Virus record (IMG/VR): IMGVR_UViG_3300027659_003120
Location: 1 to 64,000 of that record
Source of the DNA: a virus
DNA length: 64,000 nucleotides
Reading direction: 5' to 3' (one strand)
This document shows positions 25,233 to 60,961 of this stretch, piece after piece; positions within the stretch are counted from its first letter, which is position 1, and every line of letters begins with the position of its first letter. Both the position numbers and the translations under genes were made by a program. The notes beneath the pieces are model-generated. The model searched no databases and had not been told where the DNA came from. It saw only the letters and a program-made list of their open reading frames with translations.

Positions 25233-25936
25233 TTTATAATGAACCTTATCCACACCATATAATAGATAATTTTATTGATGATGAGATTGCTCATAAATTG
25301 TCAAATGACTTTATGAGTTATGATTCCCCAAATTGGTTTATTTACAACAATCAAATTGAAGTCAAAAAATCATGTAACAACTGGTACAATTTTCCAGAAG
25401 AAACGTATAAGTTTTTTCAGTATTTGAATTCTTCAACATTTGTTCAGAGTTTGTCGGATTTAACTGGTGTACAACTTATACCGGACCATGGATTACATGG
25501 CGCTGGTTGGCATATTCAACCCGCCCAAGGTAAACTGAATGTACATTTGGACTATTCAATTCATCCTAAGCTAGGTTTAGAGCGTAGATTCAATTTAATT
25601 TTTTACCTAACACCAAACTGGAATACATCTTGGGGAGGAAATCTTGAATTGTGGTCACATAACTCAGAGAATAATTCTCCAAAAGAATTGATAAAAATTG
25701 TGGAAAACAAATTCAATCGTGCATTAATTTTTGATACCACTTATAATTCATGGCATGGTTTTTCACAACCAATAACTTGCCCAGAAGGTGTATATAGAAA
25801 GAGTATTGCAATGTACTATCTATGTGAACCATCAAAAACTGCATCCAAACGACATAGAGCATTATTTTCAACAACTGAAGAACAGAAGAATAATGGGAGC
25901 GTTCTAAAATTGATTCAAGATAGGATTAAATTATGA
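25229..25936 (+). CDS. 2-oxoglutarate/Fe(II) oxygenase (prolyl-4-hydroxylase-like)
   Basis: This 235-residue protein overlaps the previous gene by four bases. It has the iron-binding HxD in LNVHLDYS (His about 105), the distal His in NSWHGFSQP (about 175) and the 2-oxoglutarate-binding Arg in VYRKSIAMYYL (about 189). The central FNLIFYLTPNWNTSWGGNLELW matches the P4Hc core. Such enzymes hydroxylate proteins, sugars or small molecules and are common in marine myoviruses. Its place in an island of glycosyltransferases suggests tailoring of a glycan or a virion protein. Confidence 0.85.
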   Translation: MIYNEPYPHHIIDNFIDDEIAHKLSNDFMSYDSPNWFIYNNQIEVKKSCNNWYNFPEETYKFFQYLNSSTFVQSLSDLTGVQLIPDHGLHGAGWHIQPAQGKLNVHLDYSIHPKLGLERRFNLIFYLTPNWNTSWGGNLELWSHNSENNSPKELIKIVENKFNRALIFDTTYNSWHGFSQPITCPEGVYRKSIAMYYLCEPSKTASKRHRALFSTTEEQKNNGSVLKLIQDRIKL

Positions 25937-28278
25937 CAGAAACATGTACAGATAAAATTGTTGAGATACTAAAATCTAAAAAAATTGATAGTTTTGAAGT
26001 TCGTGGCGGCACAGATAAAATCTCTGGGCACAGCTACTCTGAGATATATGGAAAACATTTAAACAAATACTTAGACAAAAAAGGATCTCTCCTGGAAATA
26101 GGAGTATTTTGGGGCGGTTCTGCGGTTTTATGGAACGACTTACTTCCTAATTTTAATTTGTGTTTGTTGGATATAGTAAATGTAATCACTCCAGATAATT
26201 GGGAACAACTTGATAAGAATAGGATGGAATATCTAATTGCAGATGCTTACAATGATGTAACAAGAAACCAGATAAAAGAAAAATATCCAGATGGATTTGA
26301 TGTTATTACTGAAGATGGTCCTCACACTTTAGATAGTCAGTTAAGTTGTATTAAACTTTATTTGCCTCTAATCAAAGAAGATGGAGTAATGATTATTGAG
26401 GACATTGCAAATATAGAAAATTTAAATACATTAATGAAATCAGTTGATAGTAATTATGATTGTATTTCATATGATTATAGGCATATAAAAAATCGTTCGG
26501 ATGATATTGTTTTAGTTATTAAAAAAAGAATGAAAAAATGTAAAATAGTAATGACTGCTATGTTTAAGAATGAGGCATCAGTGACGAAAAAGATGCTTGA
26601 ATCTTGCTACAAATATATTGATTTTTGGGTTGTTCAAGATAATGGATCCACAGACGGAACAGATAAAATAGTTAAAGATTTTTTTACAGAGAAAAATATA
26701 CCCGGCCACTATTATCAAGTAGAAGAAGGTTGGGTTGGTTTTGGATGGAATAGAGACCACTTAATACAAGTGTGCCAGAGTATTGACCATGGGTGCGACT
26801 GGATTTTAAAAATGGATTGTGATGAAACTTTAGAAGTTGATGCTGATTTTGATTGGTCTTTACTTGATGATAAGTCTCAACATTCATTTCATATACCAGC
26901 TGTACAGCCTGGATTATTATATTACAGGGCATGGATGTGGAATGCACAAATGCCTTGGAGATTTAATCACGACCCGTGCCACGAAACTAGTTACTGTGAT
27001 ATAGAGGGTATTGGCGAAAACTACAATAGATTCAACTTGCCTCTTTCTTTTAGACAGGTTGGAACCAGAGGAGGTCAAAGTTGGACTGTGCCAACAAAGT
27101 TTATTAGTGATGCATTAATACTTGAAGAAAAAATGATTCGTGAAAATACAATGTTAACAGATTCATATCATTTTTGGTATATTGGAAAAAGTTATAGTGA
27201 TGCATATTCTAGCAATGCTTTTCCTTTAGGCGAATCTCAACAGAAAGAATATGCGAGAAGAACAATTTATTATTTTCAAGAATTTTTAAATTTCACTCAC
27301 GATTTTGCAAATACAAAAAAATCAAAACATATTGACGAAACCGCTTACATGTCTCTGTTGTTAATGGGAGATGCAAATTGGTATTTAGGACAAAAAGAAT
27401 CTAGTGTTGAATGTTATAAATTAGCTGCTCAATTTGCACCAGAAAGAAATGAACATTTATATCTTTTAGCTGAGAAGAATAAATATCTTGGAAATTTTAA
27501 AGAAATGTTAATTTGTACCTCTATAATGATGCAACCCGAAAGAACAAATCCATTTCCAAAATATATTAACTTCATTGATCCAACTTTATATCACGATGGC
27601 GGTGATAGGATTAAAAATTTACACGCCGAGGCTTTTTCATATGTTCAATCTATTTGTGTTGCCGAACAAGAACCAGTTGAATTTTTACCAGTACAAAAAA
27701 ATATTATGACAAATTTTAATATAAACAAAAATTATCAAAACAGAATGTTTATTGTGGATAATTTTTATGAGAATCCAGATTCTATTAGGCAACATGCACT
27801 CACAATGGAATTCAAAGAAGACATAAGATATTATAAAGGTTTAAGAACGACTACACACTTTCACCCAAATGGAATTAAAGAATCATTTGAATCTATAATG
27901 GGTAAAAAAATTAACAATTTTGATGGAGGCATCAATGGTTGTTTTCAAATAACTACAGCAAATGATGTTCAGGTGTATCATTATGATTTACAAACTTGGG
28001 CTGCTATGATATACTTGACGCCAAATGCTCCTATTGAAAGTGGAACTAGATTACATCGCTCAAAGATTAATGGCACAAGACATTCAAGTGAGCCCAATAT
28101 AGATGATGCGTTTACTGGTGGCTTCTTGGATTCTACAAAATTTGAGGTTACCGATTCGGCTGCTAATATATACAATAGACTAGTCATTATGGATGCAAAA
28201 TGTATTCATTCAGCAGGTGCATATTTTGGCGACAACAAATATAATGGTAGACTAACTCATTTATTCTTTTTTGATTAA
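25933..28278 (+). CDS. Three-enzyme fusion: methyltransferase, GT2 glycosyltransferase, 2OG-Fe oxygenase-like
   Basis: This 781-residue protein is modular. Residues ~1-200 form a class I SAM methyltransferase (LEIGVFWGGSAVLW as motif I, LCLLDI, and DVITEDGPHTLDSQL typical of CmcI/Methyltransf_24). Residues ~202-440 form a GT2 domain (VMTAMFKNEASV, VVQDNGSTDGTD, WILKMDCDETLEV). A helical, TPR-like linker (~465-540) follows. Residues ~600-781 form a jelly-roll oxygenase of DUF6445 type with VYHYD (HxD about 683), CIHSAGAYFG (second His about 758) and a late Arg (GRLTHLFFF). The fusion suggests sequential tailoring of one acceptor. It overlaps the upstream gene by four bases. Confidence 0.8.
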   Translation: MTETCTDKIVEILKSKKIDSFEVRGGTDKISGHSYSEIYGKHLNKYLDKKGSLLEIGVFWGGSAVLWNDLLPNFNLCLLDIVNVITPDNWEQLDKNRMEYLIADAYNDVTRNQIKEKYPDGFDVITEDGPHTLDSQLSCIKLYLPLIKEDGVMIIEDIANIENLNTLMKSVDSNYDCISYDYRHIKNRSDDIVLVIKKRMKKCKIVMTAMFKNEASVTKKMLESCYKYIDFWVVQDNGSTDGTDKIVKDFFTEKNIPGHYYQVEEGWVGFGWNRDHLIQVCQSIDHGCDWILKMDCDETLEVDADFDWSLLDDKSQHSFHIPAVQPGLLYYRAWMWNAQMPWRFNHDPCHETSYCDIEGIGENYNRFNLPLSFRQVGTRGGQSWTVPTKFISDALILEEKMIRENTMLTDSYHFWYIGKSYSDAYSSNAFPLGESQQKEYARRTIYYFQEFLNFTHDFANTKKSKHIDETAYMSLLLMGDANWYLGQKESSVECYKLAAQFAPERNEHLYLLAEKNKYLGNFKEMLICTSIMMQPERTNPFPKYINFIDPTLYHDGGDRIKNLHAEAFSYVQSICVAEQEPVEFLPVQKNIMTNFNINKNYQNRMFIVDNFYENPDSIRQHALTMEFKEDIRYYKGLRTTTHFHPNGIKESFESIMGKKINNFDGGINGCFQITTANDVQVYHYDLQTWAAMIYLTPNAPIESGTRLHRSKINGTRHSSEPNIDDAFTGGFLDSTKFEVTDSAANIYNRLVIMDAKCIHSAGAYFGDNKYNGRLTHLFFFD

Positions 28279-28280
28279 TT

Positions 28281-29552
28281 ATGAAAAATTTGAAATTTAG
28301 TATTATTACTCCATCACATGATCCAGGAAACATTCCTTACTTGTTAGAAGCATTTGAAAGTTTGTGTGAACAAACTCATGCCAATTGGGAATGGATATTA
28401 GCTATAAACAATAAATTTTTACCACAACTTGTTCCAAAGATAATCAAAGAACATCCAAAAGTAAAAATATATCATACTTATATTGAATCATCAAATATTG
28501 GTGCAATTAAGCATGAATCATTTTTCTTGGGTGAGGGTGATGTTTTAGTAGAACTAGACCATGATGATATGCTTACTTCTAATTGTTTGAAGAAATTAAA
28601 CGAAGCATATCAAGATGATGATGTTGGATTTGTTTATAGTGATAATGCAACATTACATATGGAGAACAATTTTATTCCATTTAATAATTCATACGGCTGG
28701 ACACATAGGCCGTTTGAGTGGAAAGACAAAGAACTCATTGCAATGAATTCTTTCAAACCAACAAGCCATGCAATGTCTTATATTTGGTTTGCTCCAGACC
28801 ATGTTAGGTCATGGAGAAAAGAACATTATGTCAATATTGGTGGACATAATCCTGATATGTTTGTTTGTGAAGACCATGAATTGTGTATTAGAACTTACCT
28901 AACTACAAAAATGGTTTTTATACCTGAACCACTTTATGTTTACAGAATAACAGGAAACAATACTTCTATAAACAAAAGAAATCCAGAAATTCAACAAAAG
29001 ACTAAAGAACTACATGCTCAGTATGCACAAAAATTGGCAGAGAAAGATGCTAAGGATAGAAAATTATTATGTGTGGATATTGGTGGAGGTTTGAATCCTT
29101 ATCCAAATTATTTATCTATTGATTTAAGAAAAGATGCGGATGTCATACATGACTTAAATGATGGTATACCTCTCAGAGATAACACGGTAGGTGTACTAAA
29201 CGCAAGTCATATACTAGAACACTTGCACGATAAGACGAAAATAATGGCAGAAATACATCGTGTATTAGCACCGGGAGGATGGGCGTTCATTCAAGTTCCA
29301 AGTACCGATGGAAGAGGTGCATTTCAAGACCCAACACATGTTAGTTACTGGAACGAAAATTGCTTTTTATATTATACCGATGCATATTTGGCTAATTTTA
29401 TAGATAACAAAGATATCCGTTTTCAAGAATATCGTAGAGAGACATACTTTCCTAATGAATGGATGAAAAATCTAGGCGTATGTGTCACGGACGCTTGGTT
29501 AGTTGCAATTAAAGATGATATGCCAAGATTACCTGGTCCATTAAAGATATAA
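28281..29552 (+). CDS. GT2 glycosyltransferase fused to SAM methyltransferase
   Basis: This 423-residue protein starts two bases after the preceding gene. Residues 1-~250 are GT2: FSIITPSHDPGN, a VELDHDDML metal-binding motif near 90-97, and the late VCEDHELCIRTYL acid motif. Residues ~262-423 are a class I methyltransferase: CVDIGGGLNPYPNYLSIDLR (motif I), ASHILEHLHD and HRVLAPGGWAFIQVPS (type-11 signature). Similar glycosyltransferase-methyltransferase fusions make methylated sugars in O-antigen-type clusters. Its stop codon lies within the late promoter of gp13, so it ends the island. Confidence 0.85.
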   Translation: MKNLKFSIITPSHDPGNIPYLLEAFESLCEQTHANWEWILAINNKFLPQLVPKIIKEHPKVKIYHTYIESSNIGAIKHESFFLGEGDVLVELDHDDMLTSNCLKKLNEAYQDDDVGFVYSDNATLHMENNFIPFNNSYGWTHRPFEWKDKELIAMNSFKPTSHAMSYIWFAPDHVRSWRKEHYVNIGGHNPDMFVCEDHELCIRTYLTTKMVFIPEPLYVYRITGNNTSINKRNPEIQQKTKELHAQYAQKLAEKDAKDRKLLCVDIGGGLNPYPNYLSIDLRKDADVIHDLNDGIPLRDNTVGVLNASHILEHLHDKTKIMAEIHRVLAPGGWAFIQVPSTDGRGAFQDPTHVSYWNENCFLYYTDAYLANFIDNKDIRFQEYRRETYFPNEWMKNLGVCVTDAWLVAIKDDMPRLPGPLKI

Positions 29553-29579: not shown

Positions 29580-30539
29580 ATGGCTAAACCCACAACTAGA
29601 GCAACATTCAAAGACTACTGCTTACGCAGATTAGGTCATCCAGTGATTCAAATCAATGTAGACGATGACCAGGTTGAAGACCGCATAGATGATGCACTAC
29701 AATTCTTTGAGGACTATCATTTTGATGGTTGCGAAGAAATTTATATGAAACATAAAATCACACAAACTGACATTAACCGCAGGTATATTCCTTGCCCAGA
29801 TGCAGTTATTTTTGTGACCGGTATCATACCATTTGACCAGTCTTCTTCATCAATCAATATGTTTGATTTGCGTTACCAATTGCGGTTGCATGATTTATAT
29901 GACTTCACATCCGTGTCATATGTTTCATATGAGATTACCATGCAACACATTCGTACTTTGAATTTATTGTTCTCCGGAACACCGATGTTCAGATTTAATC
30001 GTAAACAAAATAAAATTTTCTTAGACATTGATTGGTCTAGAGATTTACTAGTTGGAGATTATGTAGTGGTTCAGTGTTATCGTGCTATGCGACCAGACAC
30101 TGTTACTTTAACTGGCACATTAGCAGGCAACACAGTTTCTAATATCATTGTTGGAACATCAACAATATTTGACCAAGAAGTAATTGAGAATGATTTTATT
30201 ACTCTGTCAAGCGGAGAAGAAGTTCAAATTAGTAAAATAAATTCTCCAACAAATATACAAATTATTGGAACCGGGTTATCTTCAAATGTAACATCCAACA
30301 CCGCAACTAAAACCGGCATTTCTGATGTATGGGATGATAGATTTCTTAAAAGATATGGTACAGCATTAATTAAAAAACAGTGGGGAGAAAATTTGAAAAA
30401 ATTTGGAGGAATTCAGATGCCTGGTGGCGTAACTCTAAATGGAAAAGAAATTTGGGACGAAGCAGACACTGAAATTAAATCTATAGAAGAAGAAATGTAT
30501 AATTTTAATAGTTTACCTAGTGAAATATTTACAGGTTAA
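29580..30539 (+). CDS. gp13: Neck protein gp13
   Basis: This 319-residue protein begins with the characteristic TTRATFKDYCLRRLGHPV.QINV.D.Q.EDRIDDAL sequence of T4-family gp13. In T4, gp13 and gp14 form the neck that closes the packaged head and accepts the tail. A middle region (about 175-245) adds a small beta insert. The gene follows a perfect late promoter. Its TAA stop is in the same frame as the gp14 coding sequence that follows, so only this stop separates the two proteins. Confidence 0.9.
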   Translation: MAKPTTRATFKDYCLRRLGHPVIQINVDDDQVEDRIDDALQFFEDYHFDGCEEIYMKHKITQTDINRRYIPCPDAVIFVTGIIPFDQSSSSINMFDLRYQLRLHDLYDFTSVSYVSYEITMQHIRTLNLLFSGTPMFRFNRKQNKIFLDIDWSRDLLVGDYVVVQCYRAMRPDTVTLTGTLAGNTVSNIIVGTSTIFDQEVIENDFITLSSGEEVQISKINSPTNIQIIGTGLSSNVTSNTATKTGISDVWDDRFLKRYGTALIKKQWGENLKKFGGIQMPGGVTLNGKEIWDEADTEIKSIEEEMYNFNSLPSEIFTG

Positions 30540-30551
30540 TCGGAGTTTAAA

Positions 30552-31457
30552 ATTCCTACTAATTTCTATTTTAACAATTTTCCTCAACATCAAATAACTA
30601 GTGAGCAATTACTAGTAGAGGACCTCGTCATAGAAGCCATGCAAATACATGGTATGGATGTTTTCTATCTTCCAAGAACAAGTAGAGATTCTGTTGATAT
30701 GTTATATGGTGAAGACACTATAAAAGAATATCGCACTGCTCATGCTATAGAAATGTACCTTGAAAATGTTACAGGTATGGATGGCGAAGGTGATTTTATT
30801 TCTAAATTTGGTCTAGAAATTAGAGATGAATTAACTTTACTTTTAGCCAGAAGACGTTTCTCGGCTACAGTGCCTTTAACACGCCCGAGAGAAGGTGATT
30901 TAGTTTATATTCCTTTAGTAAAGAACTTTTTTGAAATTTCTTTTATTGAACATGAAAATGACCAAGCAATGTTCTATACTCTTGGTAGAGGGCGAGCTGG
31001 TAATGTATATGTTTATGCATTGAAATTAAAACAATTTGTATTTAGTGAAGAAATAATATCTACCGGAATTGATGAAATTGATGACCAAATATTTAATAGT
31101 TATAAACGTGTTTCATTACCATTAGCAAATACTGTTGTATTTCCAGCAGGTACCGGTTCATTTGTTCCTGGAGAAATTATTTACCAAGGCACTTCATTAG
31201 CCACAGCAAACGCACAAGCAATAGTGTATTCATATACCGCACACAGTTCAATAGATGTAATTAGAGTTCAAGGAACATTTACTACTGCTAATGTACGTGG
31301 AAATACAAGTAGTGCATTAAGAAAAACTATTGGGTATAATGATGACTCTCAAGTTGGTAATAATATATTTGAAGATTTTGCTGATAATGTTAGAGTAGAA
31401 ACAGAAGCAGATTCTATTTTAGATTTCTCTGAAAATAATCCATTTGGAGAAGCTTAA
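30552..31457 (+). CDS. gp14: Neck protein gp14, probable ATT start
   Basis: The product contains EDLVIEAMQIHGMDVFYLPR, a hallmark of T4-family gp14. The first ATG (30639) would remove this conserved N-terminal segment and has no well-placed ribosome-binding site. The frame is open from the gp13 stop, and its only start-like codon with a good Shine-Dalgarno is ATT at 30552: GGAG at 30542-30545, six bases upstream. Starting there gives (M)PTNFYFNNFPQHQ, 301 residues, like other marine gp14 N-termini. An ATT start is rare in bacteria (infC and pcnB are known), so this deserves checking. The role is neck assembly with gp13. Confidence 0.8.
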   Translation: MPTNFYFNNFPQHQITSEQLLVEDLVIEAMQIHGMDVFYLPRTSRDSVDMLYGEDTIKEYRTAHAIEMYLENVTGMDGEGDFISKFGLEIRDELTLLLARRRFSATVPLTRPREGDLVYIPLVKNFFEISFIEHENDQAMFYTLGRGRAGNVYVYALKLKQFVFSEEIISTGIDEIDDQIFNSYKRVSLPLANTVVFPAGTGSFVPGEIIYQGTSLATANAQAIVYSYTAHSSIDVIRVQGTFTTANVRGNTSSALRKTIGYNDDSQVGNNIFEDFADNVRVETEADSILDFSENNPFGEA

Positions 31458-31459
31458 AA

Positions 31460-32461
31460 ATGTTAAATAATTCTCATTTTTATAATAGAACAATACGAAA
31501 AGTTGTAGTAGGGTTTGGTACAATATTCAATGATATATTATTGGTTCGTTATAATAGAGCAGGAACTGTAGAGCATGAAAGAATTCGTGTGCCGCTTACA
31601 TACAGCCCTAAAGAAAAATTTATTACTAGACTTACATCAGACCCAGATTTAACAAAATCTATAGCCACTTATGTACCAAGAATATCTTTTGATTTGGTTG
31701 GTCTAGCTTACGATTCTTCAAGAAAATTTAACACAATAAATAAAAACTTCTCTGTCAACACTGTTTCCGGTGCAGCAAGTTCTCAATATGCTCCAGTTCC
31801 GTATAATTTTGATTTTAATTTATCAATTTATGTCCGAAATACTGAAGATGGCACACAAATTTTAGAACAAATATTGCCGTATTTTACGCCAGATTTTACT
31901 GTAACATTAGATTACATTTCAACTTTGGGGCGAAAATATGATATGCCAGTTATACTCAATAGTGTAACTCCAGAAATAGAGTATGAAGGAGATATGTCCA
32001 GCACTAGAATTGTTATCTGGAACTTGACATTCACTGCTAAGGCTTATATTTTTCCTCCTGTAAATACTGCAGGATTAATTAAGCAAGCTAACACTAACAT
32101 ATTTACAGATACCAGAAGCACTCTATCACAAAAAGTTTATGTAGATTATGCAAACGGTTCTGGTGTTTTAGTTACTGGTGAAGGGTTTAGAGATATCGCA
32201 AATACGAAAACCGGAACTATTGTTTATTTTGCTAATAATAGTTTAGGAATTTTAGTAGTTTCTGACATGAATGAGTTACTAGAAGAAAATGATGTTATTG
32301 TTGGAGATTATTCTAATGCTAGATATACGATAGACACTGTTGATATGAATCCACTAAGGACTGTAGCAATAATAACAGTACCAGACCCAATCACCGCAAA
32401 CGCATCTTCTAATTATTCATATACAGAAACAATTACTGAATTTCCAAATTCTCTAACATGA
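31460..32461 (+). CDS. gp15: Proximal tail sheath stabilisation protein gp15
   Basis: This 333-residue protein opens MLNNSHFYNRTIRKVVVGFGTIFNDI and continues with RVPL.Y.PKEKF..RL, the diagnostic region of T4-family gp15. A conserved VPRISFDLVGLAYDSSRK segment follows. In T4, gp15 forms a hexameric ring on top of the tail, joining tube and sheath to the neck. The length is slightly above the T4 protein owing to a C-terminal extension from about residue 215. It overlaps the gp16 start by four bases. Confidence 0.9.
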   Translation: MLNNSHFYNRTIRKVVVGFGTIFNDILLVRYNRAGTVEHERIRVPLTYSPKEKFITRLTSDPDLTKSIATYVPRISFDLVGLAYDSSRKFNTINKNFSVNTVSGAASSQYAPVPYNFDFNLSIYVRNTEDGTQILEQILPYFTPDFTVTLDYISTLGRKYDMPVILNSVTPEIEYEGDMSSTRIVIWNLTFTAKAYIFPPVNTAGLIKQANTNIFTDTRSTLSQKVYVDYANGSGVLVTGEGFRDIANTKTGTIVYFANNSLGILVVSDMNELLEENDVIVGDYSNARYTIDTVDMNPLRTVAIITVPDPITANASSNYSYTETITEFPNSLT

Positions 32462-32845: not shown

Positions 32846-33283
32846 ATGGAAGAACTCATTCAACAATTAAAGGTAATATTAGCTACGAACTTTGCTTTAT
32901 ATTTAAAGACACATAATTATCATTGGAACATAGAAGGTTCAAATTTTCCTCAATATCATACATTTTTAGATGTTCTGTATAATGCAATATTCCTTCAAAA
33001 TGATCCTATAGCAGAACACATTAGGTATCTTGATGCATATGCACCAGGTTCGTTTACTAGATTTCAAGAGCTATCTACTGTTAAAGACCAATACTTAATA
33101 CCAACCCCCAATAAGATGTTTGAAGAATTAAAAGAGGATAATGAAAAATACATCATAGAATTGAGGGCTGGCATTGAATTAGCAGACGATGCAGACGAGC
33201 CTGCAATTGGAAATTTTCTACAAGAGTTGTTAGGCGCACACCAAAAACATTCTTGGATGTTAAGAAGCATTCTTAAATCATGA
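32846..33283 (+). CDS. dps: Dps/ferritin-like protein inserted between terminase genes
   Basis: This 145-residue protein contains THNYHWNIEGSNFPQYHTFL, matching the Dps signature KxHxxHWxVxGxxFxxxH. All five ferroxidase-centre positions are present with the exact spacing of Dps: His26, His38, Asp42, Asp53 and Glu57. Dps dodecamers oxidise and store iron and protect DNA from peroxide. The gene starts one base after gp16 and overlaps gp17 by four bases, so it is co-expressed with the packaging motor. A Lys-rich DNA-binding tail is absent, which argues for iron or peroxide chemistry rather than direct DNA compaction. The function in infection is inferred. Confidence 0.9.
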   Translation: MEELIQQLKVILATNFALYLKTHNYHWNIEGSNFPQYHTFLDVLYNAIFLQNDPIAEHIRYLDAYAPGSFTRFQELSTVKDQYLIPTPNKMFEELKEDNEKYIIELRAGIELADDADEPAIGNFLQELLGAHQKHSWMLRSILKS

Positions 33284-60297: not shown

Positions 60298-60479
60298 AAG
60301 ATTATGAAGTACATCCTATTGGAACATTTACTGAGATTAAATTCTCAAGGGCGTTAGTTGATGCAATTGAACAGATTACACAACAGTATGGAAATGGTAT
60401 TGTGCCCAATTCTGTTTTCAATGCATACTGTAAATTAAAAACACATTATGATGTTCAACTTGAATCGGAAAATATATGA
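60294..60479 (+). CDS. Small hypothetical protein after gp44
   Basis: This 61-residue protein starts at ATG 60294, overlapping the gp44 stop (ATGA); a longer reading from 60258 lies inside gp44 and is less likely. It reads MKDYEVHPIGTFTEIKFSRALVDAIEQI and is predicted alpha/beta. It resembles short proteins in this position in other marine T4-like phages. Function unknown. It overlaps the GIY-YIG gene by four bases. Confidence 0.6.
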   Translation: MKDYEVHPIGTFTEIKFSRALVDAIEQITQQYGNGIVPNSVFNAYCKLKTHYDVQLESENI

Positions 60480-60961
60480 TTAGAAATGTTTTTGGTGATT
60501 ATCAAATCACGGGCAAAGATTATGCCATAATAATCTTGAGAGAATTAATATTATCACAGTTTATTTCAATAACACCTAATCTTAAAACAGATAAGGGTGT
60601 TAATAGTGATAGATATATTAATGTAGCAGGATTTTATTTTATATACAACAATGAAGAATTGGTTTATATCGGTTACACAAATCATAGTATTCATGGAAGA
60701 ATTGGTAGATTTTTTGCAGGTGTTAGGGGCACCGAAAGGTATGATGAAAACCATCCCGCAGCCTATAAGTTTGTTGCAAAGTATGGATGTAAATGTGAAA
60801 ACGTGTTTTTAAAAATTATTCCTGTTGATTATAATTCATTATTGTCCGATATTACTATGACCGATATAGAAGATGAATTGATTCAATCTATGAAGCCCAC
60901 ATTAAATAATGAAATTTATAGAAATAGAGATGTGTTATCACATTCTTTTGAGTTGCAATGA
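60476..60961 (+). CDS. GIY-YIG nuclease-like protein inserted in the clamp-loader operon
   Basis: This 161-residue protein has GFYFIYNNEELVYIGYTNHSIHGRIGRFF, matching the GIY (here FYF/IY) and YIG motifs with the following Arg of GIY-YIG nucleases. DIEDELIQSMKPTLNNEIYRN contains the catalytic-type Glu and the typical KPxLN ending. About 45 residues precede the domain. No DNA-binding homing tail is evident. It lies between gp44 and gp62 in tight overlaps, so it is co-translated. It may be a free-standing homing-type or defence nuclease. Confidence 0.75.
   Translation: MIRNVFGDYQITGKDYAIIILRELILSQFISITPNLKTDKGVNSDRYINVAGFYFIYNNEELVYIGYTNHSIHGRIGRFFAGVRGTERYDENHPAAYKFVAKYGCKCENVFLKIIPVDYNSLLSDITMTDIEDELIQSMKPTLNNEIYRNRDVLSHSFELQ

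Follow-up and report, generated by a model that had tools for sequence, protein, structure and literature searches.

An AUU start codon in the neck protein gene of a T4-like phage, probably left by a homing endonuclease gene

Introduction

Which codon starts the neck protein gene gp14 of a T4-like phage when no ordinary start codon stands at its head, and how could such a start have arisen? The question is raised by a stretch of 64,000 nucleotides (hereafter the window), which belongs to a virus record of 91.8 kb (IMG/VR IMGVR_UViG_3300027659_003120). The gp14 reading frame is open here from 30540 to the TAA at 31455-31457, and no in-frame ATG, GTG, TTG or CTG is found between the gp13 stop and 30639. 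An earlier sequence-only reading had proposed that the gene starts at an ATT preceded by GGAG. AUU starts occur in infC, where the codon serves IF3 feedback, in pcnB and internally in T4 gene 26, and gp14 would resemble these phage and bacterial genes. Prokaryote genes are generally held to have next to no AUU, AUC and AUA (AUH) starts, and gene finders ignore these codons.

Results

The gp14 locus of the window

The gene order gp13-gp14-gp15 (Table 1) and a PF11649 (T4_neck-protein) score of 106.8 bits, against a cut-off of 25, place gp14 in the T4 gp14 family by both sequence and synteny; the window differs from that family in starting with AUU instead of NUG. Counted from ATT, gp14 has 301 codons before its stop. 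The bases cited by the sequence-only reading (the frame open from the gp13 TAA, the GGAG, the ATT and the first ATG) were confirmed, with a spacing of 6 nt between GGAG and ATT. Its remark that conserved gp14-like residues are encoded ahead of that ATG also held: codons 2-29, from ATT to the first ATG, differ from those of the related locus L004 at 13 nucleotides and 0 amino acids. As these differences are silent only, the segment is evidently translated and the start lies upstream of 30639. ATT is the sole near-start codon suitably placed, and this conservation indicates translation from AUU. RNA folding at the gp14 start was ordinary (z -0.28).

Table 1. Features around the gp14 start in the window. 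HEG, homing endonuclease gene; SD, Shine-Dalgarno sequence.
Feature	Position	Strand	Basis or remark
gp13, neck protein, head-tail adaptor Ad2	29580..30539	+	PHROG 211, E 7e-41
gp13 stop TAA	30537-30539	+	shares the gp14 frame by coincidence; frame relation varies among relatives
TC, possible left end of former insertion	30540..30541	+	two bases only, weak
GGAGTTTAAA, gp14 SD and spacer, interpreted as HEG scar	30542..30551	+	13-nt exact run with HEG 3' end
GGAG, SD of gp14	30542-30545	+	read from bases
ATT, gp14 start codon	30552..30554	+	comparison of aligned codon, conservation of codons 2-29
gp14, neck protein, head closure Hc2	30552..31457	+	PF11649 E 1.7e-30; phrog_460 E 2e-63
First in-frame ATG of gp14	30639..30641	+	rejected as start: 29 conserved codons before
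gp15, tail sheath stabiliser, ordinary ATG start	31460..32461	+	PF16724 E 3e-71

The start codon of gp14 among related phages

A first search returned 80 related loci, of which 14 have ATT at the gp14 start column and one is incomplete; the rest have ATG. Four loci from other samples (L001, L002, L003 and L016) carry the same ATT, with gp14 99-100% identical to that of the window. Scanning IMG/VR for ATH-NNN-TNFYFNNF yielded 51 contigs, all of them gp14 (ATT 39, ATC 7, ATA 5), and an exhaustive scan for codons with a non-G third base in this column added 27 more. Eighteen of these 27 are gp14, all with an in-frame ATG 3-6 nt (1-2 codons) upstream, and nine are chance matches outside gp14. All 80 matches listed for the BTG scan had GTG or TTG, and an unbiased motif scan gave AUH in 7 of 80, likewise among the matches listed. 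Apart from the genes with an in-frame ATG 1-2 codons further upstream, gp14 therefore has only ATG, GTG, TTG, ATT, ATC and ATA at the aligned codon, a restriction that, as judged from the alignment, fits nothing but a start codon. The ATT of the window sits in the column of the ATG, GTG and TTG starts, so that the comparison strongly supports the proposed ATT start with its SD.

In a phylogeny of 203 gp14 proteins, built without the first residue, AUH requires 23 changes, at least 15 of which are forced by well supported branches, and the AUH loci are mostly tips next to ATG, GTG or TTG relatives. The idea that these phages use AUH starts generally was rejected: in a comparison of six genomes, gp14 alone was affected, being the sole real gene with conserved coding sequence before the first NTG in G000, G005 and G006, among the matches listed. 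A special phage tRNA was rejected as well, the sole tRNA-Met(CAT) in G000 being, by eye, without the GGG/CCC initiator anticodon stem. The 91.8 kb record yielded a single tRNA; a related 162 kb phage (L367/L368; G001, 115.6-121.5 kb) has 26 in one cluster.

Homing endonuclease genes at the gp13-gp14 junction

In many ATT and ATC loci the gene preceding gp14 is not gp13 but a free-standing GIY-YIG HEG, and these inserted genes measure 0.6-0.9 kb. They were identified by PF01541 (GIY-YIG), NUMOD3 and PHROG 314 (homing endonuclease); the GIY-YIG domain exceeds the Pfam cut-off in the L005 and L102 types, and the L084 type has no Pfam match and is recognized by PHROG 314 (E 5e-19). Family A (L005, L082, L088, L090, L102, L109) fills the whole gap between gp13 and gp14. 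A group I intron was rejected, with an Rfam match at gathering score in 0 of 7 loci, and the HEGs are by these two observations free-standing rather than intron-borne. Family A genes end in GGA GTT TAA-A-ATT or in GGA GTT CAA AAT TAG, the stop TAG of the latter overlapping the ATT AGT of gp14.

Family B (L084/L409, L107/L430, L126/L425, L421, L434, L436, L444) is a distinct set of endonucleases, found in 46 contigs and mostly ahead of gp14. Seven distinct junctions of this family lead into a gp14 with an ATT or ATC start, and at least seven more into one with an NTG start. Loci at which gp14 kept an NTG start despite HEG insertion are L143, L249, L414, L419, L422, L433, L437, L443 and L446. 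The C-termini of the HEGs differ, yet they end in Gly codons spelling GGAG or GGAGG (e.g. GGA GTT TAA, GGA GGC TAA), so that the last HEG codons contain the SD of gp14, and the HEG stop abuts or overlaps its ATT or ATC.

The junction is a hot spot in many T4-like phages, with at least two endonuclease families sharing the insertion point. In some family B loci (L084/L409, L107/L430, L126/L425, L249), TATAAATA-like sequences, which we take to resemble the T4 late promoter consensus, lie 10-30 nt after the gp13 stop, together with an SD of the HEG's own before its start; family A, unlike family B, relies on the gp13 stop. Other inserts occur as well: L353 has one of 2.3 kb without a recognized HEG, and L125 has one of 893 nt, with an ORF giving weak HTH_20 and Sleeping Beauty HTH matches below the Pfam cut-offs, after which gp14 begins with ATT behind GGAGGCTAAA.

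The window itself has no HEG here: only 12 nt separate gp13 from gp14, and phrog_314 matches nothing in the genome of the window. None of the contigs found carries a HEG beside a gp14 more than 90% identical to that of the window. Elsewhere in the window, the ORF at 60464-60961 gives a weak GIY-YIG match (19.7 bits, below the cut-off).

Replacement of the start codon and changes in early gp14

Presence of the HEG is polymorphic between close relatives, and five sister pairs were compared, whose gp13 ends are 91.5-100% identical (L082/L306, L005/L007, L090/L203, L103/L183, L085/L173). In the near-identical phages without HEG, gp14 starts with ATG, GTG or TTG. In L005/L007, with gp13 ends 99.5% identical over 200 nt, both share the leader TAA-AC, after which follows the ATG of gp14 in L007 and the ATG of the HEG in L005. 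The HEG of L090 starts with GTG, as does gp14 of its partner L203, and the HEG of L102 opens with ATGGCTACTAAA, where gp14 genes of that kind open with ATGGCTACTAAT. Exact replacement is not universal: in L082 the HEG begins one base off the position at which gp14 begins in L306.

The last 200 nt of gp13 are identical in L082 and L306, and their gp14 genes differ at positions 2-5, 8, 11, 14, 17 and 20, the next difference being at 254 (8/30 early versus 10/567 later, p 5e-7). Early clustering was similar in L085/L173 and L090/L203 and reached 5/30 versus 0/567 in L103/L183; in L005/L007 it was below significance (p 0.09). Differences clustered in the first ~21 nt of gp14 look like a co-conversion tract. 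The HEGs of L005 and L088 are 93% identical in nucleotides (dN 0.036, dS 0.24), with gp14 at 71%; HEGs more alike than the adjoining genes indicate transfer between these lineages. In all HEG comparisons made, dN was lower than dS.

Remnants of the HEG and the leader of the window

Several loci retain fragments of the HEG. In L402, 31 N-terminal codons are fused in frame to the last HEG codons; L112 has the HEG start and the last ~26 codons (81 nt); L006, L013 and relatives are left with GTG GGA GTT TAA, a three-codon remnant; and in further HEG-less AUH loci the tail alone is left. Read together, L402, L112, L006 and the bare tails form an apparent series of HEG decay. Leaders matching a HEG tail at 9/12 nt or more were found in 14/17 HEG-less AUH loci and in 13/170 NTG loci (none of the latter above 10), and the leader of L100 matches the L402 remnant at 24/26 nt.

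For the lineage of the window (L001), GGAGTTTAAA-ATT equals the HEG tail of L005 and L082 at 13/13 nt (GGA GTT TAA, then A-ATT). The leader is therefore most likely the scar of a former HEG, an insertion suggested by this match of 10-13 nt together with the relatives. The TC ahead of it is the same two bases that separate the gp13 stop from the HEG start in L090 and L112. L285 (TAGGAGTTTAA-ATG) was considered as a reverted scar and rejected, as it is located behind an unrelated tail-like gene. L103 and the ATA loci (L097, L098, L117 and L127, with GGAGTTTGTGYC-ATA, and L104) are without a clear HEG tail; the gp14 genes of these ATA loci have an SD.

Association of AUH starts with SD sequences and inserts

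AUH loci were oversampled by design, and the contingency counts, uncorrected for relatedness, express association and not frequency. An SD is present in 31/33 AUH loci versus 40/187 of the rest, and the association persists in phylogenetically independent pairs (about 10:0, median p 0.002). AUH starts occur in 13/17 loci with an insert versus 17/196 with adjacent genes (Fisher p 1e-9, phylogeny uncorrected); with phylogenetic pairing, present inserts gave about 6:1 (median p 0.125), which is not significant because scars carry no insert. We infer that an SD brought by the HEG may make the weak AUH codon tolerable.

Discussion

Origin of the AUU start

Taken together, the sequence comparisons make it probable that gp14 of the window is initiated at AUU 30552 with GGAG as its SD, and that its leader was left as a scar by a free-standing GIY-YIG HEG once located between gp13 and gp14. 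Such a HEG would insert precisely between the two genes, its start falling at, or a few bases from, the gp14 start site of HEG-less relatives (ATG in the ATG lineage, GTG in the GTG lineage). Its C-terminal codons would then provide the SD of gp14, its stop would abut or overlap the first gp14 codon, now ATT or ATC, and co-conversion would alter the first ~21 nt of gp14. Internal deletions could subsequently erode the HEG to its tail, the AUH start staying behind. The lineage of the window presumably went through the same steps, with AUU decoded by the initiator tRNA-fMet and the strong SD compensating for the weak start codon. More generally, the AUU, AUC and AUA starts of gp14 are most likely the footprint of a HEG that inserted repeatedly at the start codon and took the normal start.

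Alternative explanations

The main alternative, which we consider unlikely, is that ordinary mutation gave rise to AUH codons with a strong SD and selection kept them to tune or regulate gp14 in the manner of infC and IF3, the HEGs arriving later at the same spot. The pairing of weak start with strong SD, versus strong start with weak SD, does look like compensation, and similar compensation is known for GUG and UUG (PMC5622118). However, AUG changed to AUU in 1 of 61,358 ancestral AUG starts of bacterial genomes (PMC5622118), against the at least 15 AUH changes within gp14 alone. The alternative also leaves aside that HEG-less AUH leaders match HEG tails, that the first ~21 nt of gp14 form a changed tract, and that, among the matches listed, AUH starts in these phages are confined to gp14. 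The AUU start and strong SD of an infC-type gene are indeed present in gp14, whose product is a neck protein; translational control, as suggested by the sequence-only reading, explains the ATT less well than a HEG footprint.

Readthrough of the TAA at 30537 into a gp13-gp14 fusion, also raised by that reading, is very improbable. The two genes share a frame in the window, L076, L085 and L095, but other AUH relatives have a gap of 9-17 nt after the gp13 stop, with all three frames represented, or a whole gene between the two where a HEG is present. The occurrence of every frame makes the shared one incidental, and we know of no leaky stop context of the form UAA-U. A start at ATG 30639, with the upstream part untranslated, is just as improbable: it is the first canonical start, but codons 2-29 are conserved in amino acids despite 13 silent differences, and the first-search loci other than the 14 with ATT and the incomplete one have ATG at the ATT column. 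Finally, a sequencing or assembly error for ATG is refuted by independent assemblies, the ATT recurring in L001, L002, L003 and L016 from separate samples and 51 contigs having one of the three AUH codons.

Relation to known systems and implications

The HEG footprint that we favor has its closest counterpart in the free-standing GIY-YIG HEGs of T4 (seg genes; PMC2988022), which are likewise intergenic and patchy in occurrence, with co-conversion of their flanks; a start that overlaps or abuts the upstream stop is also known among T4 HEGs (mobE, UAAUGA; PMC2988022). The seg genes differ in that the HEG is here inserted at the downstream gene's start codon and takes its place, that the SD of the host gene derives from the C-terminal HEG codons and the host gene is left with AUU, AUC or AUA, and that the window retains the scar only. 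In the T4 mobA/gene 39-60 split (PMC3014915), an oddity in the translation of a host gene is similarly tied to a neighboring homing endonuclease, there an HNH HEG with ribosome bypassing, here a GIY-YIG HEG with a non-AUG start. Compared with infC, gp14 encodes a structural protein and its AUH start is tied to a mobile gene. In the open papers searched, we found no description of a HEG at gp13-gp14 or of an AUU start made by a HEG.

One essential structural gene thus appears to have switched to AUH many times, the identifiable cause being a selfish gene that inserts at its start codon. Homing endonucleases may then rewrite the initiation signal of a host gene and leave a lasting scar. The AUH loci offer a natural experiment on the trade-off between weak start codons and SD strength, and mis-annotated gp14 starts are predicted in many T4-like phages. 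More tentatively, and we regard this as rather doubtful, capture of the start codon could itself be a homing strategy. The HEG would target the conserved gp13 end and gp14 start (ATG-NNN-TNFYFNNF), take over the native initiation site, carry the SD in its own C-terminus and swap NUG for AUH so that the rebuilt junction misfits the target; the AUH scar could then outlast the HEG by shielding the phage from re-invasion.

Neighboring genes of the window

Two long ORFs just before gp13 (25933-29552) look by eye like methyltransferase/glycosyltransferase/oxygenase-like fusions, and HTVC008M has dioxygenase-like genes at the matching position. Between gp15/small terminase and large terminase, a small ORF (32846-33283) resembles, again by eye, Dps/ferritin-like proteins, with the motif LKTHNYHWN.
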